DNA from: Thermomonas aquatica
GTDB taxonomy: Bacteria; Pseudomonadota; Gammaproteobacteria; Xanthomonadales; Xanthomonadaceae
Direction of reading: 5' to 3'
Assembly (NCBI RefSeq): GCF_006337105.1
Contig: NZ_CP040871.1
Coordinates: forward strand, 186,001-250,000
DNA length: 64,000 bases
Shown here: positions 39,951 to 61,762 of the stretch, piece after piece
Numbering within the stretch: the first letter of the stretch is position 1
Layout of the letters: each line of letters opens with the position of its first letter
Program-made: the position numbers and the translations under genes
Notes under the pieces: model-generated
What the model saw: the letters and a program-made list of their open reading frames with translations, nothing else
Told to the model about the DNA's origin: nothing
The model's database searches: none

Positions 39951-40305
39951 GGGGGTGCACTGGCTTCGACGGGGGTCGCGAAATCGCACGGCGCATGCCG
40001 AGGGGGTGGCTTTCCTCGTTAATCCAGCTGCAAAAACCCAGACGCCAACGACGACGTCTACGCTCTCGCCGCTTAAGGCGTAAGCCCCGAACCCACTTGT
40101 GCCCTTGCTCGTGGATGTAGGGTCATTATCAAGGGAATAGGCACCGGCGGCGACCCGCCAACCGGCGCCGAAACACAGCGGGTATGGATGACGGCGTGCT
40201 TCGCACGTTGTGTTGCCGGCATCCGAGACCAAACAACGGGCTAAGCATGTAGTGCCGGGCATGGAGTGCCTTCGGACGGGGGTTCGATTCCCCCCATCTC
40301 CACCA
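39951..40305 (+). ncRNA. ssrA: Transfer-messenger RNA (tmRNA)
   Basis: A 355-nt tmRNA that rescues stalled ribosomes with SmpB. The 5' end GGGGGTGCACTGGCTTCGAC and 3' end with T-arm TTCGATT and CCA (40303-40305) pair to form the acceptor stem. The tag frame at 40044-40076 encodes ANDDVYALAA followed by TAA, close to the E. coli tag ANDENYALAA. Pseudoknot-rich sequence follows. The last 39 nt are element-derived (attL), so the 3' end of the functional gene is supplied by the integrated element; the T-stem is still perfectly paired, but the acceptor has one G-U pair where the displaced original had G-C. Confidence 0.97.
40267..40305 (+). repeat. attL, 3' end of ssrA
   Basis: A 39-nt direct repeat of 61724-61762 with three differences (positions 13, 27 and 31). 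Two of the three are a compensatory swap of one T-stem pair (G-C here, C-G at attR). It restores the T-arm, acceptor stem and CCA of tmRNA. Confidence 0.9.
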
Positions 40306-40652: not shown

Positions 40653-40868
40653 CTACTCAGGCTGCAGCAGCCCCATCAAGTCCGCTTTCTGCATTAGCTC
40701 GCGATAGTGGTCGTCAAGGGCGCGTTGGTCGCTTTCAGTTTCGATATGGGGAAGGATCGAGGCCATCTCATCATCGACCACGCGCCAGATGTCCTTCAGT
40801 TCCGGATGCGCCCCCGCCAGGTTAGGTAGTCGATTGACCAACGCAGCCATACGCTCAGCGATTGTCAT
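40653..40868 (-). CDS. Hypothetical 71-aa protein, last gene of the defence-like operon
   Basis: MTIAERMAALVNRLPNLAGA, then HPELKDIWRVVDDEMASILPHIETESDQRALDDHYRELMQKADLMGLLQPE. It is acidic and all-helical by appearance, with no known motif that I recognise. Its ATG overlaps the stop of the SRAP gene by 4 bp, so it is translated with the operon. It could be a small accessory or regulatory subunit; that is inferred from position only. Confidence 0.7.
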   Translation of the reverse strand: MTIAERMAALVNRLPNLAGAHPELKDIWRVVDDEMASILPHIETESDQRALDDHYRELMQKADLMGLLQPE

Positions 40869-41839
40869 GCCGCCTCCTTGACCAACTCGTAGAACGGATG
40901 CCGTCGGTCGTCGAAGATCGCGAATAACTCTTCGTCTGACCTACCTTTAGGCGTCAGCCATGCATCGACGTGCTCAGGCTTGATATTGATGATTGTGCGG
41001 TCGTGACCTGCCGCGGCTACTTCTGGTTCTGGCTCGTCGGTGATGGCCGCGAACGACCACAGATCCGGTTCCTGGCCCTTCGGGTCGACCCAATGTGAGT
41101 ACAGGCAGGCGATGTACATCGTCTCGCCGGTGCGGGGACGGAACTGGATCTTCTTGCTTCCGCCCCGGCCGTCATCCACGTTCTCGTAGAAACTTTCAGC
41201 CAGCATTAGGGCGTGAGTGTGCCCGAACTGGTTGCGCCACCAACGGGTGAGGTTGTCACGTCGAGCGTTGTAGGTGCCTGAGATGCTGCCGTCCTTCACA
41301 TAGTCACTGGGTGCCGGCAAGCCAGCCAAGCGACAGTGATAGCGCATCGGGCGGATGACCTTCCGACCATCCTCGAGGATTAGCACCGGCGCATACCAGT
41401 CGGGAAAGATGCAGTCATCCCGTGCGGGTTCGTGCCGGGTGCGCTTGGCATCCTCGATCCAGCGCTGCATCTGTTTGATCTTGTTGCCGGCGATCCGTTG
41501 CTCGTTGAGCGCGGTCTTGGTTTCCTTGACCGCGAGCTTGGCTTCGGCCGCGGCGAGCCGGGCTTCCTGTTTGGCCAGCCCCTCCTCACTCTCGGCGAGC
41601 TTGCGCCCGTTCCATTCGCCGATCAGATCCTGAATCTTGCGCTCCAACTCGGTCTTGGGCCGCAGGAAGTTCAGATCCATGCCCTTGGGGATCTTCGTCC
41701 CATCGGACAGCTTTTTTCGGATGCGGTATTTCTCATCGCGCCCCAAGTACAGCTCCCAGAACGCCTTGATGTCGATGTCTGCGCCGAACTCGCGCACGTA
41801 GCCGTCGTACAGGGACCAGCATTCCGCGGAGTAGCACAT
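40865..41839 (-). CDS. SRAP-family protein (YedK/HMCES-like abasic-site sensor) with coiled-coil insertion
   Basis: A 324-aa SRAP protein. The catalytic set is visible: C2 directly after the initiator Met (MCYSAECWSL), N191 in GTYNARRDNL, E219 in AESFYEN and H279 in AAGHDRTIINIKPEHVDAWL. In YedK and HMCES the exposed Cys2 forms a thiazolidine crosslink with abasic DNA. E. coli YedK is about 222 aa; the extra length is mainly a charged coiled coil at residues 65-135 (ELERKIQDLIGEWNGRKLAE, then long KLAVKETKTALNEQRI heptads). It lies 3 nt after the GIY-YIG gene and 4-bp overlaps the 71-aa gene. Role in the operon is inferred: protection or sensing of damaged ssDNA produced by the nuclease/helicase. 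Confidence 0.88.
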   Translation of the reverse strand: MCYSAECWSLYDGYVREFGADIDIKAFWELYLGRDEKYRIRKKLSDGTKIPKGMDLNFLRPKTELERKIQDLIGEWNGRKLAESEEGLAKQEARLAAAEAKLAVKETKTALNEQRIAGNKIKQMQRWIEDAKRTRHEPARDDCIFPDWYAPVLILEDGRKVIRPMRYHCRLAGLPAPSDYVKDGSISGTYNARRDNLTRWWRNQFGHTHALMLAESFYENVDDGRGGSKKIQFRPRTGETMYIACLYSHWVDPKGQEPDLWSFAAITDEPEPEVAAAGHDRTIINIKPEHVDAWLTPKGRSDEELFAIFDDRRHPFYELVKEAA

Positions 41840-41842
41840 GGG

Positions 41843-43042
41843 TTATCCCTTGGCCGGTACCAGCCGCGCCGATTTCGGATCGTAAACATACTTCGTGATG
41901 GAGCCGTCGCGGATACGGTTCACAGCATCGTCAATGGCTTCCAGCGGGACAAAGAACCACTCGCGCGGCTTCACCGGCTTGCCGAACCGATCTTCAATGG
42001 TCAGGTCGAGCTGCGCGGGCCCGAAGATCTTGTGGAACAGGTTTTCCAGCTTCGTGCGATTGATATGCGCAAGCTTGTAGGTGGCCACGATAGTCACGCC
42101 TGCAAGCAGATAGGTCGCATCGTCCTTCGCTCCGGCAATGCGGGTTTCCACCTTCATGCCCGTCACACCGATCTTGTGGATCAACTCGCGATGCTCCACC
42201 ACATAAGGGTGATCTGACTGGCTTTGCAGGACATAGATGGTGCCGCTTTCGATGTCGTCGGGCTCCATGGTGTCGCCGAACAGCGGGCCTGCATCCACCT
42301 TGATGATCCGGCGCCCTACGGGCGTGTCGCCATCCGGATAAAGCGAGCGGGACAAGGAACGCAGTAGCAGATCGCTTTCGGTCTGGTTGTCGAAGATCAC
42401 GCGCAAGCGCGGGTTGTCGCGCCCGTCCTTCGTCTTACCGCCATCCATGATTTTGGCAACGTAAGCGATCTGGCCACCGATGATGAAGAAGTCGCCCAAT
42501 TCAATACTGGCGTCCTTGGCAAACGGTTTGGTGATCCACTTGCCAGTCTTCAAGCCGATTTCCACTTCCTCGAACTTCGGCCGGAAAAGCTCGAAGTCCT
42601 GGCATCGAGTTCGGTTGGCGATTTCCTCTGCGGCCTTGCGGTCGGCATAGGACGCCACATGGCGTAGCCGGGAGATGTCATTCTCGTCGGCTGGTGCTTC
42701 CGCCCCCAACTCGGCCAACAGCGCCTCGTCGTCCAGCGCGTCTAGGTTGACTGGAATGGCGGCGCCCGCGCCTTGGAGCAATCCTGCTGTGTCCAAGTTG
42801 GCCAACAGGTCGCGTGCATCCGGGATGCCGCGCAGGCGATCCAAGCGAACGGCATAAATGCGCTCGAAGATGTCGCGGTCTTCGCCGTGCTGAGGGGCCC
42901 TTCCATTGGCTTCCACGAAGTGCAGGATGTCCTCGAAACCGGCGATCAGCCGCTCTTGCTGCGCCGTATGGGTACTTGCCTTACTAGGCGCGGCCTCAAC
43001 GCCCAATGCATCCAGCAGGTCATCGTCATCCAGGTCAGCCAT
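41843..43042 (-). CDS. GIY-YIG nuclease family protein (T5orf172-like)
   Basis: A 399-aa protein with a C-terminal GIY-YIG-type domain: GTIYVLQSQSDHPYVVEHRE (residues 267-286, GIY strand), LIHKIGVTGMKVETRIAGAK (YIG-like KIG at 290-292 and Arg 301), then LENLFHKIFG (Glu 333) and KPREWFFVPLEAIDDAVNRI. This is the T5orf172/Mug113 form. The N-terminal half is unknown and contains two acidic-leucine repeats, DDDDLLDALGVEA (5-17) and DALDDEALLAELGAEA (101-116), which could be interaction motifs. ATG 43042 overlaps the helicase stop by 8 bp. It probably supplies the DNA cleavage missing from the methyltransferase; that is inference from context. Confidence 0.82.
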   Translation of the reverse strand: MADLDDDDLLDALGVEAAPSKASTHTAQQERLIAGFEDILHFVEANGRAPQHGEDRDIFERIYAVRLDRLRGIPDARDLLANLDTAGLLQGAGAAIPVNLDALDDEALLAELGAEAPADENDISRLRHVASYADRKAAEEIANRTRCQDFELFRPKFEEVEIGLKTGKWITKPFAKDASIELGDFFIIGGQIAYVAKIMDGGKTKDGRDNPRLRVIFDNQTESDLLLRSLSRSLYPDGDTPVGRRIIKVDAGPLFGDTMEPDDIESGTIYVLQSQSDHPYVVEHRELIHKIGVTGMKVETRIAGAKDDATYLLAGVTIVATYKLAHINRTKLENLFHKIFGPAQLDLTIEDRFGKPVKPREWFFVPLEAIDDAVNRIRDGSITKYVYDPKSARLVPAKG

Positions 43043-45137
43043 TGGCGGCCTCTTTGGCTTTCTCGTCGGCCCGATACTTGGCCAGGGCGGCAACGCCTTC
43101 GGCCATGCGCTTCTCCCAGGCATCAGGCGAATTGATGTCGGGCAAGCGCCCCTTCTCAGTCTTGAACTCCAACGCACGCTTAGCCAATTCGCGCGCCTCT
43201 TCCTTCGGGATGTTCACGCGCTTGGCCGAAATGCTGGCCTGCACCTGACGCAACACCTTCTCGTCCATGGCCTTGGCCAACACGGAATACGCTGCCTCAA
43301 ACGGATTGATACGGTCAATCAGGTCAATGTCCAGGTCACGGACATTGATGAAACGGCGTACGCCATCGATCAGGGCGGTATTACCCTGCTGTTCGGATGC
43401 CGTTCCATCCGCTTCGGCCTTTGCCAGCACTTGCTTGGCCTGTTGAGTGAGGTTGAGCGCAGCGATGGCATGTTGGCGGATAGCCTCCTGATCGGACTCG
43501 CTCAACTCGGGGTAGCGATCGCGCACGATCTTGCCCATCTGAACCTGTGTCAGTTCCTCGGGCAGGGTGTTGTCATTGAACAAGCCGTTCTCGATGGCCG
43601 TCTTGTCCTGGACGAAAGCGGTGATGACCTCGTTCAAGTCCTCCTTGCAGATCCGCTTGGCCTCGTGGGTCTCGGGCATGGTCAGTCCGCCAATCTCCAC
43701 GTGGACTTGGCCGGTTGCTGCGTTCACACCAACGTTGCTTCCGCCCTCGACATAACCGCCTTCGTACTCGAAGCCTTCGAGCTTGCCTTGGTTCTTGGGC
43801 GTGAACTCGAAACGTGGCGCCAACACCTGCTCCATCAGCAGGCTTGCGGCAATGGCTTTCAACGTGTCGTTGACAGCCGCCACGACTTCCGCCTCGCCTG
43901 CGGCAGGCTCGGCAATCAGGTTGGTGAAACGCGAACGCTCCTTGCCGGGTGCATCACGGGTGGCGCGGCCAATGATCTGAACGATCTCGGTCAGACTGCT
44001 GCGGTAGCCGATGGTCAGCGCGTGTTCGCACCAGATCCAGTCGAACCCTTCCTTGGCCATCCCCAGCGCGATGATGATGTCCACGTGATCGCGGTTGTTC
44101 TTCTGCGTCGGGTCTTTCAGCGAGTTCAGCACCTTCGCGCGCTTCGTCGCGTCGCTGTCGTCCACCAGATCGGCCACCTTCAACATGGAGCCATCCGCCC
44201 GCTCCACCAGGTGGAAGCCCGTGACGGGATCGGCGCCCTTCCACGTACCAAGCGACTCCAGGATTTCCTCGACTTCCCGGTATTTGTCTTGCAGGCTCTC
44301 GCGCGAGTTGACGTTCGGGATGTGGACGATGGTCTTCAACGCCGGATCCAGCACCTTGGTGATCGCGTCCAGATATCGGCCCGTATAGAAGAAGTAGCCG
44401 ATTTCTAGCGATTTCAGGTAGGTATAACCGTTCAACTGCTCGTAGTAGGTGTACGTCACCGTCTCGAAGCGGTTTTCATCTTGCGGCGCCAGCACCGCCA
44501 CCGTATCGCCGCGGAAGTAGGAGCCGGTCATGGCCACCAAGTGGGCCGAACCGGCGCCAATCAGTTGCGTGAGCTGGCTACCCAACACGTTGTCCGGGTT
44601 GCTGCTGACATGGTGGAACTCGTCCACGGCAATCAACCGGTCATTGAAGGCCTCGATGCCGTACTCCTCCACAGCGAACCGAAAGGTGGCGTGCGTACAG
44701 ACCAACACCCTGTCCTCGCTCCCCAGGAACTGTCCAACGGCCCGCACTTTGCTCTTATCGACCTTCACCTCGTCGTCGCCCGGCGCATTGCATAGGTTCC
44801 ACTGCGGCTGAACCTTCCAGTCCGCCCAGAACCCGTACTTGGACAGTTCCTCGTCGGCGAAACTGCCGCCGATGGACTTCTCGGGCACCACGATGATGGC
44901 CTGTTTCAAGCCCTGGTTCTGCAACTTGTCCAGCGCAATGAACATCAGTGCGCGCGACTTGCCCGATGCCGGCGGCGACTTGATCAACAGGTACTGCTCG
45001 CCACGTTTGGCGTAGGCGCGCTCCTGCATGGGGCGCATGCCCAGGGCATTGATCTTGCTCGACGCACCCGTGCGCGCCGTCGCAATTGAGACCGACGGGA
45101 TTTTCCTGGTGTCGGTTGGGTTGCCATCCGAAGTCAT
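43035..45137 (-). CDS. SF2 DEAD/DEAH-box helicase of a restriction-like system
   Basis: A 700-aa superfamily 2 helicase related to type I/III restriction translocases. Walker A is SPPASGKSRA (54-63), motif II VDEFHH (171-176), motif III AMTGSY (202-207), motif V GMAKEGFDW (359-367) and motif VI QIIGRATRDAPGK (387-399). The last 250 residues are helical and unassigned. No nuclease motif is visible. ATG overlaps the methyltransferase stop by 4 bp, and its own stop overlaps the GIY-YIG start, so the three are a coupled operon. It would drive DNA translocation or unwinding for restriction. Confidence 0.9.
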   Translation of the reverse strand: MTSDGNPTDTRKIPSVSIATARTGASSKINALGMRPMQERAYAKRGEQYLLIKSPPASGKSRALMFIALDKLQNQGLKQAIIVVPEKSIGGSFADEELSKYGFWADWKVQPQWNLCNAPGDDEVKVDKSKVRAVGQFLGSEDRVLVCTHATFRFAVEEYGIEAFNDRLIAVDEFHHVSSNPDNVLGSQLTQLIGAGSAHLVAMTGSYFRGDTVAVLAPQDENRFETVTYTYYEQLNGYTYLKSLEIGYFFYTGRYLDAITKVLDPALKTIVHIPNVNSRESLQDKYREVEEILESLGTWKGADPVTGFHLVERADGSMLKVADLVDDSDATKRAKVLNSLKDPTQKNNRDHVDIIIALGMAKEGFDWIWCEHALTIGYRSSLTEIVQIIGRATRDAPGKERSRFTNLIAEPAAGEAEVVAAVNDTLKAIAASLLMEQVLAPRFEFTPKNQGKLEGFEYEGGYVEGGSNVGVNAATGQVHVEIGGLTMPETHEAKRICKEDLNEVITAFVQDKTAIENGLFNDNTLPEELTQVQMGKIVRDRYPELSESDQEAIRQHAIAALNLTQQAKQVLAKAEADGTASEQQGNTALIDGVRRFINVRDLDIDLIDRINPFEAAYSVLAKAMDEKVLRQVQASISAKRVNIPKEEARELAKRALEFKTEKGRLPDINSPDAWEKRMAEGVAALAKYRADEKAKEAANG

Positions 45138-47905
45138 TTCGCTTTCCCCTTCTTCGGCTTGGCCTGGCCCGCCGTCATCTTGGTGTAGAGGTCGAACAGC
45201 TTTTCCAGCCGCTCGGTATCGTTCTTGAACTTGCGGCCGATGTAGATGCGTTCCAGCGTCTCATCGTTCTTTTCGTGCGCCCGGCGCAAGTCGTCCGGCA
45301 TGGTGTCCGGGTCGTATAGGTCGGCGATCGTTGCCGGGAAATGTGCTTCGCGGGCCAACAGGATTTCCTGGGCGCAGGCCGTCAGGTCGGCCTTGTTCTG
45401 TTCGGTCAGCGTTGGGATCGGGAAAGTGTTCCAGCCGAGGGTGTTGGAATACGAGAAATCGGTTCGCATTCGCACGCAAACTGTTCCCACCCAAACCCAG
45501 TGCAAGCGTGAAGCGATAAGGGCAAGGTTCCACAGCGGAGCATCATAGAGCGCAAAGTTGCGATCACTTATGACGTTCGGCGCTGGCAATAGACCGACCG
45601 GAAGAAACGGGCGACCCTCAGAACTCACTCTTGGCACTACAAGCAAGTGACTCTCTGACTGATTCATTTCACGAAACTGGTGCGGTCTCGCTGCCATTTT
45701 CCGAGCACCAGGATCAGGACTTTTCAGTCTTGTCGCTCTAACTGCCTCTAAACGCTGCGCCAATCCACGGATCGCTAACGCCTCATCGAGGTATTCGTCC
45801 TCGATCCAAATACAAAATCGTATGGAACCGTTGATGAACTCATCAGACCCATAAACTTGACGAACAAAGCGGTCGCGCTGATCTTTCGTAAGCTCTAAGT
45901 CGCGCAGTTGACTAGGAGTCAAATACAAATGGCCGCCATCGTATCCCGTGTTTCCGCGGACCATTTCAGCAAAGCCATTACTATTTCGCGTCGCAGGCTC
46001 AACGATGTAACTAGGCCCTGAAACCAAATAGGCGTTGATGTTCTCAACTTCTTTTAGGATGGATGAGTCATTTTCCCCAGGAGAGAAAAGACTCTTCATT
46101 CTCCGCGGCTCCCGCGAAATGCAAACGATGACAACGGTAACCCCTGCATTGTGGCTAGCCAGGTTTGCCCACTTGAATGACGAGTAGGCGAATTGAATCT
46201 GGCTCTCCGTCGCGTAGATCGCTGGCCATAGAATTGGCACCTGTTGGCCCTGGCAAATGGAGTTCGTAGCCACGAAGGCTGCCGATGCCTGCGTGTGCCC
46301 TCCATACTCCGCAGCCTTCATGAACCAACCAGCTACATAGTCAAGCAGTTTCCAGTTCTTTGCGCGTCCTTCAAACACCGCGGCCATATCGGATTTTTGA
46401 TCCTTCGTCTGCCACGTTGAACCAAGATAAGGAGGGTTACCGCAGATGTAGGTTTCGCCGCCCTCGTTCTCGAAGTCGATTTCCGACTGGTCCAGCGGCG
46501 TATTGAACAGGTCATCGCCGACCAGCTTCACTCCCGTGCCAGTCGGTGGACAAATGGCCAGCCAATCCAGGCGCAAGGCATTTCCGCATGTGATCCAGTT
46601 CTGGCTATCCAACGGGAGCACATGCGTCAGCGCTTCCTTCTGACCGCGATACATCACATCGCACTGGAACTCCGCGATGATCAGCGCCAGACGCGCAATC
46701 TCTGCAGGGAAGTCGCGCAGCTCGATCCCGCGGAAGTTGTTGATCGGGATTTCCGATGCCAGATTGGCCTCGCCACGGAGGCGGTTGATCTGGGCTTCGA
46801 TCTCGCGCATCTGCTTGTAGGCGATAACCAGGAAGTTGCCGCTGCCGCACGCCGGATCGAACACCCGGATGTGTGCCATGCGCTTGCGCAGGTTCAGCAG
46901 CTTGATCTTGTTGTCGCCCGCGGCTTCCAGTTGTGCCCGTAGGTCATCCAGGAATAGCGGGTTCAGCACTTTCAAGATGTTGGGCACGCTGGTGTAGTGC
47001 ATGCCTAGGGCGCCGCGCTCTTCGTCATCGGCCACCGCCTGGATCATCGACCCGAAGATGTCGGGATTGATCTGCCTCCAGTTCAATTGCCCGGCCTGGT
47101 ACAGGTAAGAGCGCGCCGTGCGCGTGAACTTCGGTACGTCGGTGCTACCGGAGAACAGCCCGCCGTTGACGTAAGGGAACTCGGTCGCCCAGCGCGGCAA
47201 TCCGGCTGCAGCCCGGTCTTCCGTCTTGGTGTTCATGGCGCGGAAGATCGTTTCCAGCACCTCGTGGACGTTGGAGCCGTCTCGCTCGCTCATCCGGTCC
47301 ACGGTGGTGGTGAACAAGGAGGCGCCGGGGAAGATGTCGGTGTCTTCGGCGAAGAAGCAGAACACCAGGCGGGCCATGAAGTGGTTCATGTCCGGTCGGC
47401 GCTCGAACGTCGCCCATGCCGGGTTCTCGCGCAGCAGCTCGATGTACAACTTGTTCAGGCGACCCGTCGCCCGAACGTCGATGGGGTTGTCCTTGATCTC
47501 CTTGATCGTGGAGATGCCGGCCAGCGGCAGGAAGAAGCCGAAGTGGTCGGGAAACTGGGGGAACTCGCAGGCGATGGCGTCGCCCGTGGCCAGCTCCTCG
47601 GCTTCCAGCGTCGTCCCGTCGGTGGCCAGGATGAACTTGGCCTTGGCCTGGGCGGTCTTCGGGCTGGCCTTCAATGCGGTGAGGGTCTGCCCCACCTGGC
47701 CCGGCTCGGCCACGGCGATGTGGATATGGTTGCGCTGCAGCACGCCGCCCGGCAGATCGGAGTTGTTGCTGTCGCCCTTGCGCAGGCGCGCAATGGTCGT
47801 CGCCTTGTTGCCGAAGGCTTCCAGGAACTGGAACGGGAACTCCGCGCCCACGAACGCCTTCTCGGCTAGTTCGGATAGTGCCTGTTCAATCTCTACGGCA
47901 TTCAT
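45134..47905 (-). CDS. Class I SAM-dependent DNA methyltransferase, MmeI-like without nuclease motif
   Basis: A 923-aa adenine-type DNA methyltransferase. SAM motif I is VFDPACGSGNFLVIAYKQM (about 350-368), and motif IV NPPY is in YICGNPPYLGSTWQTKD (about 488-491). The N-terminal 150 residues correspond to the MmeI N-domain, but the PD-(D/E)XK signature expected there (an ExK such as YKGK) is absent; this region reads HIHIAVAEPGQVGQTLTALK. The helical spacer (MNHFMARLVFCFFAEDTDIFPG) and target-recognition region (about 495-780, AT-rich at the DNA level) follow. First gene of the leftward operon; divergent from umuD with a 219-bp shared promoter region. Confidence 0.88.
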   Translation of the reverse strand: MNAVEIEQALSELAEKAFVGAEFPFQFLEAFGNKATTIARLRKGDSNNSDLPGGVLQRNHIHIAVAEPGQVGQTLTALKASPKTAQAKAKFILATDGTTLEAEELATGDAIACEFPQFPDHFGFFLPLAGISTIKEIKDNPIDVRATGRLNKLYIELLRENPAWATFERRPDMNHFMARLVFCFFAEDTDIFPGASLFTTTVDRMSERDGSNVHEVLETIFRAMNTKTEDRAAAGLPRWATEFPYVNGGLFSGSTDVPKFTRTARSYLYQAGQLNWRQINPDIFGSMIQAVADDEERGALGMHYTSVPNILKVLNPLFLDDLRAQLEAAGDNKIKLLNLRKRMAHIRVFDPACGSGNFLVIAYKQMREIEAQINRLRGEANLASEIPINNFRGIELRDFPAEIARLALIIAEFQCDVMYRGQKEALTHVLPLDSQNWITCGNALRLDWLAICPPTGTGVKLVGDDLFNTPLDQSEIDFENEGGETYICGNPPYLGSTWQTKDQKSDMAAVFEGRAKNWKLLDYVAGWFMKAAEYGGHTQASAAFVATNSICQGQQVPILWPAIYATESQIQFAYSSFKWANLASHNAGVTVVIVCISREPRRMKSLFSPGENDSSILKEVENINAYLVSGPSYIVEPATRNSNGFAEMVRGNTGYDGGHLYLTPSQLRDLELTKDQRDRFVRQVYGSDEFINGSIRFCIWIEDEYLDEALAIRGLAQRLEAVRATRLKSPDPGARKMAARPHQFREMNQSESHLLVVPRVSSEGRPFLPVGLLPAPNVISDRNFALYDAPLWNLALIASRLHWVWVGTVCVRMRTDFSYSNTLGWNTFPIPTLTEQNKADLTACAQEILLAREAHFPATIADLYDPDTMPDDLRRAHEKNDETLERIYIGRKFKNDTERLEKLFDLYTKMTAGQAKPKKGKAK

Positions 47906-47968: not shown

Positions 47969-47985
47969 CCACGGCCCTGCCGTGG
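47969..47985. promoter_or_regulatory. Perfect 17-bp palindromic hairpin between the methyltransferase and umuD
   Basis: CCACGGC, loop CCT, GCCGTGG. It lies 64 bp upstream of the methyltransferase ATG in the divergent gap and could be an operator of a regulator or a 5'-UTR hairpin. No T tract. Confidence 0.4.
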
Positions 47986-48014
47986 AACAACAACCTCCTA
48001 AGCGTGATCGCAGG

Positions 48015-48043
48015 TTCCACGCCCCAGTTCAGTCAAATACTAA
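48015..48043 (+). promoter_or_regulatory. Putative umuDC promoter with LexA-like box
   Basis: TTCCAC (48015-48020), 17-nt spacer, TACTAA (48038-48043). The -10 overlaps TTCAGTCAAATACTAA (48028-48043), an imperfect match to the TTAGN6TACTA-type LexA box known in Xylella. SOS control is expected for umuDC but the left half-site is degenerate. Confidence 0.4.
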
Positions 48044-48124: not shown

Positions 48125-48580
48125 ATGCTCGCCCGACACATACCCGACCCCCCTACCTTGATCGGCCCCATCGGGGTCTTCACCGCCCGCTCGCTGCCCA
48201 TGCTGGCCATGCGTGCGGCGTGTGGCTTCCCTAGTCCGGCGGAAGACTTCTTCCGCGAAGACGACCGACTCGATCTCAACGAAAAGCTCATTGCCAACCC
48301 GCCGGCCACCTTCTTTGCCTGGGCCGACTGCGGGGGCTCGATGGTGGACTACGGCATCCACGACGGTGATCTGTTGATCGTCGACCGTTCGATCAACCCG
48401 CGGCCCGGGCATACGGTGCTGGTGCTGTGGGAAGGCGGGTACACCGTCAAGCGGCTCGCCGTGCACGCTAATCGGTTCATTCTGCTGGCGAGCAAGGGGC
48501 ATCCTGCCATCGTCGTCCCGGACGACATCGAGCTCGATGTCTGGGGTGTCGTGCGCAGCAACGTGCATTTCCATGTCTGA
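48125..48580 (+). CDS. umuD: UmuD-like S24 peptidase, Pol V accessory subunit
   Basis: A 151-aa self-cleaving protein. The likely cleavage site is Cys33-Gly34 in [13 protein letters not shown], the nucleophile Ser72 is in [23 protein letters not shown], and the general base Lys109 is in [10 protein letters not shown]. RecA-stimulated cleavage gives UmuD', the active partner of UmuC. Length is close to E. coli UmuD (139). It overlaps umuC by 8 bp and is divergent from the methyltransferase operon. Carried on the integrated element. Confidence 0.93.
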
Positions 48581-49871
48581 GCCGGCACCACGCTTCGGCC
48601 TGATCGACGGGAACACGTTCTATGTCTCGTGCGAGCGGGCGTGGGATGCCTCGCTACGGGACGTGCCTGCGGTCGTGCTCGGGAATGGCGATGGGTGTTG
48701 CATCGCCCTGTCGCCGGAGGCCAAGGCGCTGGGGCTCAAGATCGGCACTCCGATCTTCCAGGTGCCCGACGACATCCGCAGGCAGGTGCAGGTGCGTTCG
48801 GCCAACTTCGCGTTGTATGGCGATATCTCCGCCCGGATCGTGACGATCCTGCGCGACCTGTTCCCGCGGGTGGAGGTCTACTCGATCGACGAGAACTTCG
48901 TCGATGTCGAGGGCATCAAGGATCCGGTCGCGCTCTGCCTGGAAGCGCGTCGACGCATCCTCCAGTGGGTCGGGATCCCCTGCTGCGTGGGGCTCGGTAT
49001 CACGCGCACGCTGGCCAAGGCGGGCAACAAGCTCGCAAAGAATCAGTCCAAGCGCGCCATCCGTGCTGGACGCCTCGCCGTGTTCCACGCCACGCCAGAG
49101 AACATCCACCAACTTTCGGTCGAGGATGTCTGGGGAGTGGGCCATCGCTATGCCGCTCGCCTCGCTAAGGAGGGCGTCCACACGGCAGCCGACCTAGCTG
49201 CGTTGCCAGAGGAGGCAGTTCGGAGTCGCTACGGGGTAGTGCTCGCACGCACACAGCAAGAGCTACGTGGCATCCCATGCGGCGACCTCGAGCTGGATGA
49301 GCCTGACCGCAAGCAGATCGTGGTCTCGCGGATGTTCGGCCGGGACGTGGTTGACCCATTCGATGCTCTGGCGACCTTCGCAACGGTGGCGTGCGAGAAG
49401 ATGCGCGGCCGGGGCCTGGCCGCCGGCGCCCTTTGGGTCTGGCTGGACGGCAACGCTCACAAGGACGACGGGTTCCACGCCTCGCGCGCCGTGCCCCTCC
49501 CCTTCCCGACCCGCGACACGGGCGAGGTGCTACGCGCCGTTCGCTTCCTGTCCGAGACGATGATGAAGCGCGACCAGCTCTTCAAGCGTGGTGGCGTCGG
49601 CCTCGCTGATCTTGTTCGCAGCGAGCAGCGACAAGCCGACCTGTTCCACGGCCCAGATGAGCGCAGGGAACGCGGCATGGAAGTCATGGACCGCATCAAC
49701 GCCAAGTTCGGACGCGGCACCGTAGGCGTTGGCACCACGGGCTGGAGGGTTGGTGGCCGTCGTCCAGGCGAGCCGATCAGGACGCCCAAGGACGCGCAGT
49801 GGCGCCCAACGCTGAAGTTCCTCTCGCCTTCCTACACGACGAAATGGAGCGAGCTGCTGCGGGTCCGGTAA
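48573..49871 (+). CDS. umuC: DNA polymerase V catalytic subunit UmuC
   Basis: A 432-aa Y-family polymerase (E. coli 422). Catalytic acidic residues are in [18 protein letters not shown] (D12) and [13 protein letters not shown] (D106, E107). The thumb and little finger follow ([35 protein letters not shown]), and the UmuC C-terminal domain is complete. It extends lesions left by replicative polymerase, with UmuD'. ATG overlaps the umuD stop (ATGTCTGA). Confidence 0.95.
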
Positions 49872-51240: not shown

Positions 51241-51660
51241 TCAAGCGAGCACTTCTAAACCCTTGCGCTGTACGAGATTCAAGAGTTTGAGTGCGGGGCC
51301 ATCAGGATTCTTTTCCCCCGACTCCCATTGCGCAACGCTACTCTTGCTGACGTTCAAGTACATGGCAAAAACTGGCTGAGATACCTTTTCACGCTTCCGA
51401 AGGGCAGCAATTTGCGCTCCCGCAAATTTGACCACGGGTTCCAGGCAAAGCTTGTCAAATTCACGCATGGTTTCAACCTTCACCACGCCCGCCTTATGCA
51501 AGCCAGACATGGTCTCGTGAATGGAAGCCAAGATTGGGCTTGCGCTCTTCCTGACCGCCTTGACCTTAACCATCGTTACCTTCGCTCGCCGGGCCTTCGG
51601 ACCGAGACGAGCCTTCTTAATGGCCACATCATTCGGCTTCTTCAACACCTTCATCGTCAT
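51241..51660 (-). CDS. XRE-family antitoxin / regulator
   Basis: A 139-aa protein (ATG 51660, or 51654). The C-terminal XRE helix-turn-helix is FAGAQIAALRKREKVSQPVF, then AMYLNVSKSSVAQWESGEKNPDGPALKLLNL; the N-terminus is Lys-rich. It is encoded just after, and overlapping by about 30 bp, the RelE-type toxin, so the pair has toxin-first order as in HigBA. It should repress the promoter at 52068-52040. Confidence 0.82.
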   Translation of the reverse strand: MTMKVLKKPNDVAIKKARLGPKARRAKVTMVKVKAVRKSASPILASIHETMSGLHKAGVVKVETMREFDKLCLEPVVKFAGAQIAALRKREKVSQPVFAMYLNVSKSSVAQWESGEKNPDGPALKLLNLVQRKGLEVLA

Positions 51661-52024
51661 CTTCAATCTCCGAAATCTCGCCAGCGGCAATAGCCTCCTC
51701 AATTTGCGCCTGAGTGAGCTTGCCAAACTCCTTCGCCATCTTTTTGAGCGCCTTTTCCTCTTTCTCGTCGATGTTGTCTCTCTGGCTCTTTGGGAATCCA
51801 TACACGAAGAACAGGTGGTCGCTGGTTTTGTGCGTCACAAAGGTTCTGTAGCCACCGGATTTCCCACCTCCGTCTCTAGCGACACGCTTCTTAAACACGC
51901 CTCCACCAAGGTCAGCCTCATAGCTACCATCCAATACTTCTTGGGCTGCTTGGAACAACACCGAGTCTGGAATGCCGTTCTGGCGAGCGAAGCGACCAAA
52001 CGCTTTTACCTTGTAAAAGGCCAT
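51629..52024 (-). CDS. RelE/HigB-type toxin
   Basis: A 131-aa protein with the RelE-like core AFYKVKAFGRFARQNGIPDS, VLDGSYEADLGGGVFKKRVARDGGGKSGGYRTFV and HLFFVYGFPKSQRDNID. This is the family of mRNA-cleaving toxins (RelE, subgroup with FFVYGF..K...N). The acidic C-terminal tail is unusual. ATG 52024 has GGAG 5 nt upstream; a TTG two codons earlier is less likely. Two-gene operon with the downstream XRE antitoxin. Confidence 0.82.
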   Translation of the reverse strand: MAFYKVKAFGRFARQNGIPDSVLFQAAQEVLDGSYEADLGGGVFKKRVARDGGGKSGGYRTFVTHKTSDHLFFVYGFPKSQRDNIDEKEEKALKKMAKEFGKLTQAQIEEAIAAGEISEIEDDDEGVEEAE

Positions 52025-52039
52025 CAAAGCTCCGTATTA

Positions 52040-55132: not shown

Positions 55133-55613
55133 GTTCGTGGGCATCCTGAAGGGAGGGAGATGGGGGCGGGGTCGGGATAGCGGTGCCAGCCTTGCGGTGG
55201 CGGCACCAGGGGCAGGCGATGACGTGCGGGGGGCAGCCAGACCACAGATAGACCGGACCGCAGCCGTGACAGGTGACGGGCTCCGTCCAGCCTGCTGGGA
55301 CTACACCTGCAGCGAGATCAACATCGCGGCGCAAGGCGCGGATGTAGGCGAGAAGAGTTTCCTCGGGCTCGCCGACGCAAGCGGCCAAGTCTGCCCTGCT
55401 CAACCGGTGGACGACGCCAGGATCGACGCCCTCACGTTCCGCAACGCGAAGCATGCGAGGCAGTGGATCTAGGGAAATTTCGCCACGGGGGCCGTTTGGG
55501 TCACTGACAAAACTGACAAAACCGGGTTCTGTCAGTTTTGTCAGTTCATCGTTTGGCCCTGTCCCTGCATCTACCGCAGAGAGGGACGCCAATCGATCGC
55601 GCCACGCGCTCAT
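55110..55613 (-). CDS. Hypothetical protein with C-terminal zinc ribbon and embedded CTGACAAAA repeats
   Basis: A 167-aa protein. Residues 23-37 (ELTKLTEPGFVSFVS) are encoded by the inverted repeat at 55503-55545. The C-terminus has a Cys/His cluster CHGCGPVYLWSGCPPHVIAC followed by PWCRHRK, likely zinc binding. ATG 55613 overlaps the DUF3987 stop by 4 bp (ATGA) and is preferred to 55622. Proteins of this layout are common next to DUF3987 and primase-like genes in integrative elements, but I know of no assigned function. Confidence 0.65.
   Translation of the reverse strand: MSAWRDRLASLSAVDAGTGPNDELTKLTEPGFVSFVSDPNGPRGEISLDPLPRMLRVAEREGVDPGVVHRLSRADLAACVGEPEETLLAYIRALRRDVDLAAGVVPAGWTEPVTCHGCGPVYLWSGCPPHVIACPWCRHRKAGTAIPTPPPSPSLQDAHEHGNHEPA
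55503..55545. repeat. 16-bp perfect inverted repeat built from CTGACAAAA units
   Basis: ACTGACAAAACTGACA (55503-55518) and its exact complement TGTCAGTTTTGTCAGT (55530-55545), 11-nt spacer. Each arm holds CTGACA twice in tandem, 9 bp apart. It lies inside the coding region of the 167-aa gene and reads as LTKLT and FVSFVS there. Confidence 0.75.
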
Positions 55614-57157
55614 GCCGCCCACCTGTATTCGACGGTTGGGCGGCCACCGGCATCACGGGAAGGTACGTTCGTTTCGTGGACGTGGCGGTACTCAGCGAGG
55701 GTGTCCAACCCGCCGGCCACCACCTCGGCATCGGTGAGACCAGCCCAGCCCTTCCGATAGACATCCCGAGCAGTGAACCCATCAGGCAAGCTCGTGCGCT
55801 TCTTCAGGAGTAGGTGCGCCGCACTCAGGCCGTTGTCGCTTGCCGGCGCGTAGATTCGACGGGCATGGCCCTCTAGGTACTCACACCAGCCCAGCGCTCG
55901 AGCCATTGCGTTCCCACTCACCGGCCCGGTTCCACCATCGGCCAGGTGCAAGATCAATGCGAGGCGCCCGGCAAGGCTCTGGTACTTGGCCAAGTGGCTC
56001 TCCATGTGTGGTGGCTCTGCCCCCTCCCTCAGCCGGGGCATCAACTCTTCTAGCCACTCGATGAACATGCTCTGCGCGTCGTCAGACAGAGGCAGGTACG
56101 CCACGTCACTAGAGCCGTCCCGGATGGCCCCGATGGCATCAACCTGCAGATTGCGCATGCGGGTGAACGCAGCGCGCGCCTCTGCCTCAGCAGCAGGATC
56201 AAGCGCGCGATCGGTGTATCTCCATGAACTCGGCAGGTCTGGGTAGACGGCGAGCTGGAATCGCTGCATGAGGCCGTCGTCGGCGAATCCACCGCGGACG
56301 GCACCTCTAACGTAGTCGGCAAGCTTTCCCGGCTGTGCGCCACCCAGCACGCTCACTGCGCAGGCTTCAATGCGGATCGTGCCGCGTCCGATGCGATCCA
56401 CCGTGTAGCCGCCCGCGCCGTTCCAACACTCCAGCCAGAACGCCCGGTCAGACTCGCGCCCTTCGCGGTCCATAGTGGCCAGCCAGCCCATCAGTTCGTC
56501 GCGGAACTGGACGAGGCCGAGCGGGTTGGCGTTGAGCAACTCGCCAAGCTTCTCCACGGTGGCGTCGTTGACCACGATGCGGGGCTCCTCGGGGATCTTG
56601 TCCTCCGTCCTCTTGGTTCCCTGAAGTTGGTCGAGAACGTCCGCACGGTTGGCGCCTTTCTTCAGCGCCTTACGTGCGACTTCCTGAGCGTTGGATGCCT
56701 CCATCTTCGAGACCTCCACCATCGCCATGAACTCGTCGCGCTTGACCTCCCATGCCTCCCGCTCGGTGGCTTCCAGCTTCTCGAGCATGCGACGGGCCGG
56801 GCTGAGTGCCGGGCTCTTGCCGCTGCTCGGCCGTCCGATGACGCAACCCCAGAGAATCGGATGCTCGAACCAGGCAGCATTGCGCTTCATGCGTACGGCG
56901 ATGCGACGCCCTCCCAGCGAGGACGCCAACGCGACCATCGCTGGGATGGCGGTGAAGTCCAATGGCACTTGGATGCTCTCTGCGGCGTCCTCACACCACC
57001 GGCGTACTGAATCGGGCAGTAGCGCCGAGTTGAGGCGCGGCACGGGCGGCAGTGGATTCGGCAAAGGCTCGGGTGAGGCACTGACAAAACTGACAAAACC
57101 TCCCCCTTCACCAATTTCACGTTCGGCACGGGCTTCCAGTGACATGTGTTCAGCCAT
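55610..57157 (-). CDS. DUF3987 protein, replication-associated
   Basis: A 515-aa protein. DUF3987 signatures: IQVPLDFTAIPAMVALASSLGGRRIAVR, HPILWGCVIGRPSSGKSPALSPARRMLEKLE (a GxxxxGKS-like P-loop), GLVQFRDELMGWLATMDREG, DRAFWLECWNG, SVLGGAQPGKLADYVRG. In phages, plasmids and satellites DUF3987 proteins act with primase-like genes in replication initiation; helicase activity is plausible from the P-loop but is not established here. ATG 57157 overlaps the stop of the upstream CHC2 protein by 8 bp. Residues 21-26 (FVSFVS) are encoded by the copy of the CTGACAAAA repeat at 57079-57100. Confidence 0.82.
   Translation of the reverse strand: MAEHMSLEARAEREIGEGGGFVSFVSASPEPLPNPLPPVPRLNSALLPDSVRRWCEDAAESIQVPLDFTAIPAMVALASSLGGRRIAVRMKRNAAWFEHPILWGCVIGRPSSGKSPALSPARRMLEKLEATEREAWEVKRDEFMAMVEVSKMEASNAQEVARKALKKGANRADVLDQLQGTKRTEDKIPEEPRIVVNDATVEKLGELLNANPLGLVQFRDELMGWLATMDREGRESDRAFWLECWNGAGGYTVDRIGRGTIRIEACAVSVLGGAQPGKLADYVRGAVRGGFADDGLMQRFQLAVYPDLPSSWRYTDRALDPAAEAEARAAFTRMRNLQVDAIGAIRDGSSDVAYLPLSDDAQSMFIEWLEELMPRLREGAEPPHMESHLAKYQSLAGRLALILHLADGGTGPVSGNAMARALGWCEYLEGHARRIYAPASDNGLSAAHLLLKKRTSLPDGFTARDVYRKGWAGLTDAEVVAGGLDTLAEYRHVHETNVPSRDAGGRPTVEYRWAA
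57079..57100 (+). repeat. Second copy of the CTGACAAAA repeat
   Basis: Twenty-two bases identical to 55502-55523 (core CTGACAAAACTGACA). Here there is no second inverted arm. It lies in the N-terminal codons of the DUF3987 gene. Confidence 0.75.
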
Positions 57158-57641
57158 GGACCACCTCCGGACGGAAGCGCGCAGGCGGCGGGCAGAGCAC
57201 GTTGCGGGCGTTGGCGATGCGCGTCTCGGCGAGCTTGAGTCGGGCGTCGTCCTCTTCCGACAGGAACTGCCAGCGAACGAGTTGTTGCTGTGCCAAGTGC
57301 ACGATAGCCGCCTCCTTGCACAGCACCTCCAGTGCTGCCTGCCACTGCGCAATTCGGGCACGCTCACGGGCATCTCGGCGCTCGGCATCCGTTGCCGGGC
57401 GCAGGCGTTCGGGGAACAGATCGCCCAGCGTCAGGCCAATGGAGCCAAGGACTTCGGATGGCGCGCAGCCGCCAAAGCAGTGCATCAACACTGCACCGTT
57501 GTCGGCCTCCGTGACGGACAACTTTGCCGACTTGCCGCCGCAGGATGGACACGGGCCACGGGAGCCCTTCCCCGCAGGCTTCATGGACTCCAGGCGGGAC
57601 AACAGCAAGTCGATTGGGCGCATGGTGAGGGCGGCGGTCAT
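57150..57641 (-). CDS. CHC2-type zinc-finger protein (primase-like)
   Basis: A 163-aa protein with a primase-type zinc finger: MKPAGKGSRGPCPSCGGKSA, then LSVTEADNGAVLMHCFGGCAPSEVLGSIGLTLGDLFP. The CPSC-x-C..GGC pattern and following helix match CHC2 fingers of DnaG-like proteins; there is no Toprim domain. The rest is helical (RDARERARIAQWQAALEVLCKEAA). Part of the coupled cluster HTH, CHC2, CHC2, DUF3987; ATG overlaps the previous stop by 4 bp. Confidence 0.78.
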   Translation of the reverse strand: MTAALTMRPIDLLLSRLESMKPAGKGSRGPCPSCGGKSAKLSVTEADNGAVLMHCFGGCAPSEVLGSIGLTLGDLFPERLRPATDAERRDARERARIAQWQAALEVLCKEAAIVHLAQQQLVRWQFLSEEDDARLKLAETRIANARNVLCPPPARFRPEVVHG

Positions 57642-58069
57642 GCGTTCCTCCCCAGCACTAGGAGGCGCACGGCATCGACAAATGCAATGCCGTAATGGCG
57701 CATGGCGAACCCCACCATATCGCCGTGGCCGCAGACCGGGCAGGACCAGACGCCCTTGGTGCCCGCGACATCAACCGTCAAGTTGCGGCCGCGGTCGGCG
57801 TGCATTGGGCACGGGGCGGTGCCGACGCCGTTGTAGATCACGATCTCCGGCACGTTCTGCGCGTACCACGACGACGGCATCGGCGTACGACCGCGCCAGT
57901 TGCTCGGCAGCCTGCCGGTGTTACCATTCCGCTTGAGGGTGTGCCGGTCAGCCACCTGGACGCCTTGATCGTTCGCAGCGATCAGGGCGTCGTCGTATTT
58001 GCCGGGCGGAGATCCGTAGAGTCGCGCGAGGTCACGGGTCGCGCGGCGCCCGTCGATAGCGGGCCTCAT
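57638..58069 (-). CDS. CHC2-like zinc-finger protein
   Basis: A 143-aa protein. The C-terminal part has CPMHADRGRNLTVDVAGTKG, then VWSCPVCGHGDMVGFAMRHYGIAFVDAVRLL, a CHC2 primase-type finger. The N-terminal half includes RPAIDGRRATRDLARLYGSPPG and is unassigned. It overlaps the HTH gene and the next CHC2 gene by 4 bp each, so all are co-translated. Likely part of the element replication machinery. Confidence 0.75.
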   Translation of the reverse strand: MRPAIDGRRATRDLARLYGSPPGKYDDALIAANDQGVQVADRHTLKRNGNTGRLPSNWRGRTPMPSSWYAQNVPEIVIYNGVGTAPCPMHADRGRNLTVDVAGTKGVWSCPVCGHGDMVGFAMRHYGIAFVDAVRLLVLGRNA

Positions 58070-60438: not shown

Positions 60439-61587
60439 CTAAACGAACTCCATGCTCGCAAGCTTCTCTCGGGCGGCCGCATGCACCAGATGCCCGTAGG
60501 TCTTGTTGATCATTTCGATGGACGTGCCGGTGAGTCGGGCCACCGTCACCACATCCATGCCGCTGCCGATCGCGTCCGTGATCCAGCAATGCCTCAGGGT
60601 GTACGCGACAACGTTGCTGGTCAGGCCGGCTTTTCGTGCAGCAGCTTTCACCTTCGGCGCCCAGGCTTGTGCGGTCCAGGCCTCCCCGCCGTCGGTGAAC
60701 ATGAGCGCCTTGGGCAGCTTGTCCTTGGCCAACCTGTCGAATAGCTCCTTCGCCGCGGGTGAGACCGGAATAATTCGTTCGCCAGTCTTGGTGCGGAATT
60801 TGACCGTCGTGCTTCGAGCGTCATAGTCCTTTCGCACCAGGACTGCGGGATCTCCCGGCCGGCAGCCGGTCAACGCGATGCAGGTGAGGAAGTTGCGTAG
60901 GTCGCCCTCTGCGGCCTCCAGCAGTGCCTTCCTCTCGGGAAGCGCGAGGTACACGTCACGTCGCCCGTCTGCGCTCTTGTGCGGCTTGATGGACGCCCAC
61001 TCAACGGAGCGGTCCTGGGGGATCTCTCGGCGACTGACTGCGCGATTGAGCGCGGCCTTGAGCGAGGTGAGGTTTCGATTGAACGTCGCCTTGGAGGGCG
61101 CGGCTCGCTTGCGCCCCTTCATCTCTCCGGCCTCCATCCTGGCCATCCAGGCTTCCAGGTGCCGCTGGGTGAGCTTGTCGGCGCGCATGCTACCGATTGG
61201 GTCTGAGTGCACGATGCGGTCAAAGCGCTTGCGAGCGTCAGTTTCGGCGCGCTCGCGGCCTTCAGCCTTCAACGCGTCGGTGTAGTCGCGGCAAACGTCC
61301 GAGACAGTCAGCAGCCGGTCGGTCTGCACCCCGGCGTCAACGGCGACGCGCCAGCGCCGCGCCGCAACCTTTGCGGTTTCGTAGTCGTTCGTGGCCGATA
61401 CGGCGCCGAGGGTCTGGTAGACCTGCTTGCCCTCCACATTGCGGTAGCGGGCGATCCAGTTGCCGCCCATGGCCAGGCGGCGGTAGCCCACGAAAAGGCC
61501 ACGCTCTACAGGCGCACCCCAGTACGGCTCGCGTCGCGGTTCGAGCTCCGAACGGGTCTTAGCCTTGTCGATAGCGTGACGCGCCAC
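60439..61587 (-). CDS. int: Tyrosine recombinase (integrase)
   Basis: A 382-aa phage-type integrase. Residues of the catalytic centre: Arg in LTGCRPGDPAVLVRKD, Lys in RTKTGERIIPVS, the HxLRH-like box as VVAYTLRHCWITDAI (first His replaced by Tyr, as in some families), and the nucleophile Tyr in INKTYGHLVHAAAREKL. The N-terminal arm-binding and core-binding domains precede. The start is a GTG at 61587 with AGGG about 9 nt upstream. It lies 137 bp from attR, transcribed into the element. Directs integration into ssrA. Confidence 0.95.
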   Translation of the reverse strand: MARHAIDKAKTRSELEPRREPYWGAPVERGLFVGYRRLAMGGNWIARYRNVEGKQVYQTLGAVSATNDYETAKVAARRWRVAVDAGVQTDRLLTVSDVCRDYTDALKAEGRERAETDARKRFDRIVHSDPIGSMRADKLTQRHLEAWMARMEAGEMKGRKRAAPSKATFNRNLTSLKAALNRAVSRREIPQDRSVEWASIKPHKSADGRRDVYLALPERKALLEAAEGDLRNFLTCIALTGCRPGDPAVLVRKDYDARSTTVKFRTKTGERIIPVSPAAKELFDRLAKDKLPKALMFTDGGEAWTAQAWAPKVKAAARKAGLTSNVVAYTLRHCWITDAIGSGMDVVTVARLTGTSIEMINKTYGHLVHAAAREKLASMEFV

Positions 61588-61723: not shown

Positions 61724-61762
61724 TGCCTTCGGACGCGGGTTCGATTCCCGCCACCTCCACCA
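61724..61762 (+). repeat. attR, displaced original 3' end of ssrA
   Basis: A 39-nt repeat of attL with GCGGG/CCCGC T-stem and acceptor CACCTCC plus ACCA. The acceptor pairs with the host ssrA 5' end by Watson-Crick at position 5, and the strong terminator follows directly, so this is the pre-integration host end. Confidence 0.9.

Follow-up and report, generated by a model that had tools for sequence, protein, structure and literature searches.

A candidate Type I-like restriction–modification cassette of the dnmA-yeeB-yeeC family between umuDC and SRAP in Thermomonas aquatica

Do five tightly packed genes for a methyltransferase (MTase), a helicase, a GIY-YIG protein, an SRAP protein and a 71-aa product form one anti-phage system, or does the operon join parts that belong to different units? 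The question is raised by a leftward operon in a 64,000-nucleotide stretch of Thermomonas aquatica DNA (NCBI RefSeq GCF_006337105.1, contig NZ_CP040871.1), hereafter the window, which covers bases 186001-250000 of a 3.0-Mb genome held in a single contig. Based on domain content, gene neighbourhoods and covariation, we consider it likely (a probability of roughly 0.7) that the first three genes are a Type I-like restriction–modification (R–M) cassette of the dnmA-yeeB-yeeC family lying inside the gap between umuDC and SRAP, and that SRAP and probably the 71-aa open reading frame (ORF) are not part of its core.

The five leftward ORFs and their packing had been described in a first-pass annotation of this DNA, and their coordinates (Table 1) and all junctions were reproduced: from the MTase to the 71-aa ORF these are, in order, a 4-bp overlap, an 8-bp overlap, a 3-nt gap and a 4-bp overlap. 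The ORF list also holds a longer GTG start, at 43177, for the GIY-YIG gene. In Pfam, the MTase matched MmeI_N (residues 1-159), MmeI_hel, MmeI_Mtase, MmeI_TRD and MmeI_C, the best at 5.6e-116, and it matched the PDB entry of MmeI (5hr4) at 2e-128. The helicase matched DEAD/ResIII (8.3e-07), and its structural matches were those of a generic SF2 fold, with EcoR124I HsdR, LlaBIII and HamB among them; the roles of its motifs SPPASGKS, DEFHH, TGS and QIIGRATR are presumed. The GIY-YIG protein matched T5orf172 (2.9e-11) and MUG113, the SRAP protein matched SRAP (5.3e-17), and the 71-aa ORF had no Pfam match.

These three leading genes correspond to a cluster that has been described before. Passages of two papers (PMC7261158, PMC9973331) present Bacillus subtilis DnmA (YeeA) as an MmeI homologue that has no nuclease motif and methylates GACGAG, its gene being followed by yeeB (helicase) and yeeC (T5orf172). 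As reported in these passages, a Type I-like R–M system was suggested for dnmA-yeeB-yeeC by Morgan et al. 2009 (PMC7261158), and Makarova et al. 2011 put yeeB/yeeC homologues among putative antiphage genes of defence islands (PMC7261158, PMC9973331). The window set shares with that cluster the MmeI-like MTase lacking the nuclease motif, the SF2 helicase and the T5orf172/GIY-YIG protein, in the same order and on the same strand; unlike it, the window set is followed by SRAP and the 71-aa ORF and is divergent from umuDC. The likeness rests on domains and gene order, and the B. subtilis control genome matches PF20473 (MmeI_Mtase) and PF10544 (T5orf172). By these features the first three genes of the window are classed as a member of the dnmA-yeeB-yeeC cluster. 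The first-pass annotation had been unable to match the set to any named system; a described system now accounts for the three core genes, and not for SRAP or the 71-aa ORF. According to a passage of PMC9973331, Vibrio crassostreae deleted for its dnmA or yeeB homologue became more sensitive to certain phage subclades, whereas its sensitivity to other subclades was not raised. The three-gene core is retained as the candidate anti-phage set that had been proposed for all five genes.

The order of the three genes is conserved among homologues. A helicase scan with one genome per species gave at least 590 matching stretches, several of which may share one locus, and at least 580 of these encode helicase relatives. 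The best 80 helicase loci of these stretches (70-94% identity; mostly Alpha-, Beta- and Gammaproteobacteria by record titles) served as the neighbourhood set. The MTase lies upstream of the helicase in 76 of the 80, and in the four exceptions the sequence upstream extends for no more than ~1.5 kb; the GIY-YIG gene lies downstream in 77, and of the three remaining loci two are cut by a contig end and one (L007) truly lacks it there. SRAP and the 71-aa ORF were found in none of the 80 (tblastn, E 0.001; distant SRAPs could escape), and 64 of the loci with a GIY-YIG gene have at least 1 kb of sequence beyond it. A separate scan downstream of the GIY-YIG gene took in 54 of 133 ORFs (same strand, at least 75 aa), with 25 of 69 families listed, and is uninformative on SRAP. 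The conserved order that was to be looked for among homologues thus holds for MTase, helicase and GIY-YIG gene and fails for SRAP and the 71-aa ORF. The core is these three genes, and the reading of all five as one system falls.

The interval between MTase and helicase is itself variable, the gap between the hits being at most 150 nt in 40 of 76 loci and more than 500 nt in 34. Among 43 of 51 inserted ORFs that were scanned (short or mostly opposite-strand ORFs being left out), matches were found to DUF1016 nuclease (11), AlbA_2 (seven), RhuM (three), GmrSD_N (three) and Fic (one), which are common accessory genes of Type I R–M loci. GIY-YIG relatives also occur in 224 records of a plasmid collection, 92 of them predicted conjugative, and none was found in phage records at 1e-5.

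The MTase of the window probably cannot cut by itself. The motif D-x9-E-x-K, which we take to be the nuclease motif of MmeI-type enzymes, is absent from it, as the first-pass annotation had noticed. Conservation was assessed in 85 MTase, 96 helicase and 84 GIY-YIG proteins, from loci whose hits covered at least 90% of the query and had no stops. A loose form of the motif (D-x8-12-E/Q-x-K within residues 31-110) is absent from 82 of the 85 aligned MTases, the window protein included; the other three match it at residues 67-88, and two of them come from one contig. A second MmeI homologue in the same genome (L192:5396-8188, at ~2.204 Mb of the contig; 930 aa, 33% identical to the window MTase) served as positive control and keeps D-x9-E-x-K, as DVFWPGVMLAEHK at residue 66. 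Compared with it by BLASTP, the window MTase has a glutamate at the E position and no D or K, the register of the lost residues being uncertain. No helicase or GIY-YIG gene was seen by eye beside the second homologue in the ORF listing, and the window protein is the sole T5orf172 match in the whole genome. MmeI and the Type IIL (IIG) enzymes share all MmeI domains with the window MTase; they carry nuclease and MTase in one chain, whereas in the window helicase and nuclease are separate proteins, and a MTase with no D-x9-E-x-K falls outside the single-chain Type IIG/IIL enzymes. Its best PADLOC match was nevertheless the REase_MTase_IIG model (1e-278; 25 of 43 families listed). In the partners, G267, Y270, G292, R301, E333 and W362 of the GIY-YIG protein are invariant in 45 aligned proteins, and the helicase motifs are invariant or nearly so in 36. 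The lost MTase motif and the invariant GIY-YIG residues support the earlier proposal that cutting is left to the separate GIY-YIG protein, with the helicase between.

Additional evidence comes from the target-recognition domain (TRD, MTase residues 630-833). Across the 79 genomes common to all three proteins, mean identity is 42% in the TRD vs 72% in the rest of the MTase. After removal of two duplicates (77 genomes), TRD distances showed no correlation with helicase distances (rho -0.01) or GIY-YIG distances (rho 0.00), whereas distances in the rest of the MTase followed both (rho 0.66 and 0.64; Mantel p 0.001), and helicase and nuclease followed each other (rho 0.78). Of 71 pairs with helicase identity of at least 90% (40 genomes, so that pairs are not independent), 68 have a TRD below 60%, with a median of 45%; L152 and L153, for example, are 98% identical in the helicase, 97% in the GIY-YIG protein and 45% in the TRD. 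Since the TRD varies apart from helicase and nuclease, these two seem to need no knowledge of the site; a site-reading helicase or nuclease would change with the TRD, and methylation and restriction therefore seem to depend on one shared TRD, which is Type I logic. Along the MTase, correlation with the helicase is highest at residues 1-375 (rho 0.71-0.76), drops to 0.09 at 451-600 and ~0 at 526-825, and is 0.36 in the last window. The N-terminal former nuclease domain, which tracks the helicase best, is thus the likely docking face.

MmeI-like proteins read an asymmetric site through an exchangeable TRD and methylate one adenine, and the window MTase would do the same. At an unmethylated site it may recruit or license the SF2 helicase, with its N-terminal former nuclease domain as the docking face; the helicase would translocate along the DNA, and the GIY-YIG protein would make the cut. 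Such a scheme shares with Type I and Type ISP enzymes (EcoR124I, LlaBIII) the use of one recognition module for methylation and helicase-driven restriction, as well as the SF2 fold matches. It differs from them in that recognition is by an MmeI-type TRD and not by HsdS, and that the nuclease is GIY-YIG and not PD-(D/E)XK. By the Pfam matches of the five operon proteins, the set of HsdM, HsdS and HsdR that defines Type I is absent, although the cassette may work alike.

Results from B. subtilis weigh against a working system: in the passages of PMC7261158 and PMC9973331, deletion of dnmA left transformation unchanged, and single deletions left the growth of three phages unchanged. With no restriction phenotype reported there, the MTase could, as has been proposed for DnmA of B. 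subtilis, be an orphan regulatory enzyme whose partners are defunct. We regard this as quite unlikely for the window, where both partner genes are kept with conserved helicase motifs and GIY-YIG residues, and where a TRD that differs between near-identical cassettes is a misfit for a fixed regulatory motif. The window cassette is probably a working Type I-like R–M system.

What, then, is SRAP doing in the operon? Its Cys2, Asn191, Glu219 and His279 are kept in at least 98% of 121 close aligned proteins; we take this set (Cys2, Asn, Glu, His) to be the SRAP active site, as in YedK, and the protein has the active-site residues of its family. Its named matches are from Luteimonas, Pseudoxanthomonas, Thermomonas, Lysobacter and Stenotrophomonas, and relatives occur in 60 of 149 family genomes. 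In 15 of the 19 close SRAP loci that were read (L112-L115, L172-L186; 72-86% identity), umuD is its divergent neighbour across a gap; of the other four, L181 and L182 have umuD 5.9 and 4.6 kb off, in L183 umuDC is found at the opposite side, and L186 meets a contig end. SRAP as a neighbour of umuDC has been published, to judge from part of that paper (PMC3765255); the window shares with the published arrangement that SRAP adjoins umuDC, and unlike it has a restriction cassette between them. Because none of the 80 cassette loci has SRAP and 15 of the 19 SRAP loci have a divergent umuD, SRAP is not part of the cassette core. By gene neighbourhood it belongs with umuDC and comes from the neighbouring predicted DNA-damage unit.

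The gap between umuD and SRAP varies in the 15 loci (measured between tblastn hit ends): it is 190-356 bp and nearly empty in six, two of which have a short ORF called on the opposite strand, and 0.8-3.2 kb with varied cargo in nine. A scan of 31 of 42 ORFs, those of L181 to L183 included, matched one UvrD-like, two CoiA_N and three HNH proteins, and a large share of the cargo consists of small proteins or ones without an assigned family. In L115 (6575-8482) a protein with both domains of the Type IV restriction enzyme GmrSD fills the gap, 8 nt before SRAP. The three-gene cassette was found in none of 18 readable gaps of the close loci. It fills the gap in the window (6.3 kb), where it stands between divergent umuDC and SRAP with SRAP 3 nt after the nuclease gene, and in the same-genus locus L151, where umuDC and the three genes hold the same place and SRAP is a 25-codon remnant beside the nuclease gene, its start lost (L151:10837-10911). 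Within its own bacterial family, the GIY-YIG protein occurs in 17 of 296 genomes, its own included; of the 16 other loci only L151 has an SRAP trace, and it also has umuDC divergent beside the MTase. L156 and L157 have umuDC ~3 and 6 kb from the GIY-YIG gene, and a full SRAP ~11 kb from it. We infer that an existing umuDC/SRAP unit received the cassette as an insertion; SRAP would now share the cassette transcript.

An integrated defence system of four or five genes, in which SRAP would be required, its task being to cap abasic sites or ends that stem from the nuclease or from phage DNA, finds some support in the position of SRAP 3 nt after the GIY-YIG gene, in its overlap with the 71-aa ORF and in its retained catalytic residues, and in the two genomes noted above with a full SRAP (G125 and G266) a distance of ~11 kb on a single contig separates it from the cassette. 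We judge it improbable, since SRAP is missing from all 80 close helicase loci (within the reach of tblastn, as noted above), the gaps of the 15 loci with divergent umuD hold no cassette, and L151 keeps the three genes with only 25 codons of SRAP. A BREX-like exclusion, in which phage would be blocked by methylation without cutting and GIY-YIG would have another role, is very improbable: the MTase is weakly similar to PglX/BrxX, has a DrmMI match (4.4e-25), and cutting is a deduction here, but the operon has no BREX or DISARM partner gene and the GIY-YIG residues are invariant. As the first-pass annotation had remarked, its content is unlike both systems: among the matches listed for the operon proteins there is no PglZ or BrxC and only weak PglX, and of DISARM (DrmA helicase, DrmB, DrmC) only DrmMI.

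The interval between umuD and the MTase gene holds a variant operator-like element, TTAGTATTTGACTGAA, rather than a classical LexA box. With up to one mismatch allowed, the 3.0-Mb genome has no other match, though a reversed control pattern also matches once; in shuffled versions of the window the expected number is zero. A form read from related loci, TTAGTAnTTnnCTGA, occurs in 11 of the 20 umuD upstream regions compared; of the other nine, six carry a site that resembles the LexA box (1-2 mismatches), and three carry neither form. The one exact LexA box of the genome, TTAGTAGTATTACTA, lies ~0.8 kb before recA. The variant would be an operator of LexA or a related repressor, acting towards the cassette; a sigma-70 scan gave no hit. 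At 47980-48022 an inverted GTGGAAC / GTTCCAC pair lies near the umuD promoter; inspection by eye showed it upstream of umuD in several other loci too, and it is possibly a second operator. A further proposal is that the gap separating SRAP from the divergent, damage-inducible umuDC promoter is a standing cargo slot of the family for restriction and nuclease-helicase modules, so that the cassette would be induced upon DNA damage (phage infection or its own cuts) together with an error-prone polymerase and an abasic-site shield; we consider this rather unlikely.

For the 71-aa ORF, a protein search that needs shared 5-residue words returned only itself, and it was found in one of 149 family genomes, its own. 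Weak similarity links it to small ORFs (74-82 aa) beside SRAP in L114, L177, L181 and L185 (five comparisons with shuffle p 0.001-0.017, uncorrected), and it may thus join a fast-changing family of the SRAP neighbourhood, possibly as a member of a loose family of ~75 aa. A family of 74-76 aa proteins also lies just 5' of SRAP (L177:11781-12011, L181:6818-7042, L182:7576-7800, L185:5958-6185; 54-97% identical to the first), and L114 has a different 74-aa ORF, with six relatives, just 3' of SRAP.

Since the end of ssrA is repeated at 61724-61762 beside an integrase gene, the operon is carried by an element of 21.5 kb that has integrated in ssrA. G+C content is 58-60% over 40-48 kb vs 66-71% in the first 40 kb of the window. 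The element also carries a RelE-type toxin (1.4e-42, Pfam) with an overlapping HTH antitoxin-like ORF (51241-52027), and a DUF3987 protein with a CHC2/primase zinc-finger protein (55610-58069, Pfam), which suggests that it has its own replication genes.

Table 1. Positions of the operon, its neighbours and the host element in the window
Feature	Position	Strand	Remarks
MmeI-like N6-adenine DNA methyltransferase (MTase), DnmA/YeeA type	45134..47905	-	923 aa; NPPY present, nuclease motif lost
SF2 helicase, YeeB type	43035..45137	-	700 aa; motifs SPPASGKS, DEFHH, TGS, QIIGRATR
T5orf172/GIY-YIG nuclease, YeeC type	41843..43042	-	399 aa from ATG; 260-aa N-terminal part
SRAP (abasic-site protein, YedK/HMCES family)	40865..41839	-	324 aa; coiled-coil-like insert by eye
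71-aa ORF	40653..40868	-	ORF call; overlaps SRAP stop
umuD	48125..48580	+	Divergent from cassette; Pfam Peptidase_S24, NCBIfam NF007621
umuC	48537..49871	+	Pfam IMS, IMS_C, DUF4113
Operator-like element TTAGTATTTGACTGAA	48028..48043	-	Between umuD and MTase gene; pattern match
tmRNA gene (ssrA)	39951..40305	+	Integration site; ARAGORN
att repeat, left	40267..40305	+	3' end of ssrA; 92% identity over 39 nt to 61724-61762
att repeat, right	61724..61762	+	Repeat of ssrA 3' end
Tyrosine integrase of element	60439..61587	-	Just inside right repeat; Pfam Phage_integrase 3e-08

In summary, the dnmA-yeeB-yeeC cluster and the position of SRAP beside umuDC are already known, and the window adds a member of the cluster inside an SOS unit. 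The work on B. subtilis left open whether dnmA-yeeB-yeeC is a working R–M system or a relic. That the TRD varies independently of a near-constant helicase and nuclease in these loci speaks for a functional system of a Type I-like kind, and loci such as L152 and L153 offer natural pairs for a test. Restriction would be linked to the SOS response if cargo in the umuDC/SRAP slot is driven by that slot.

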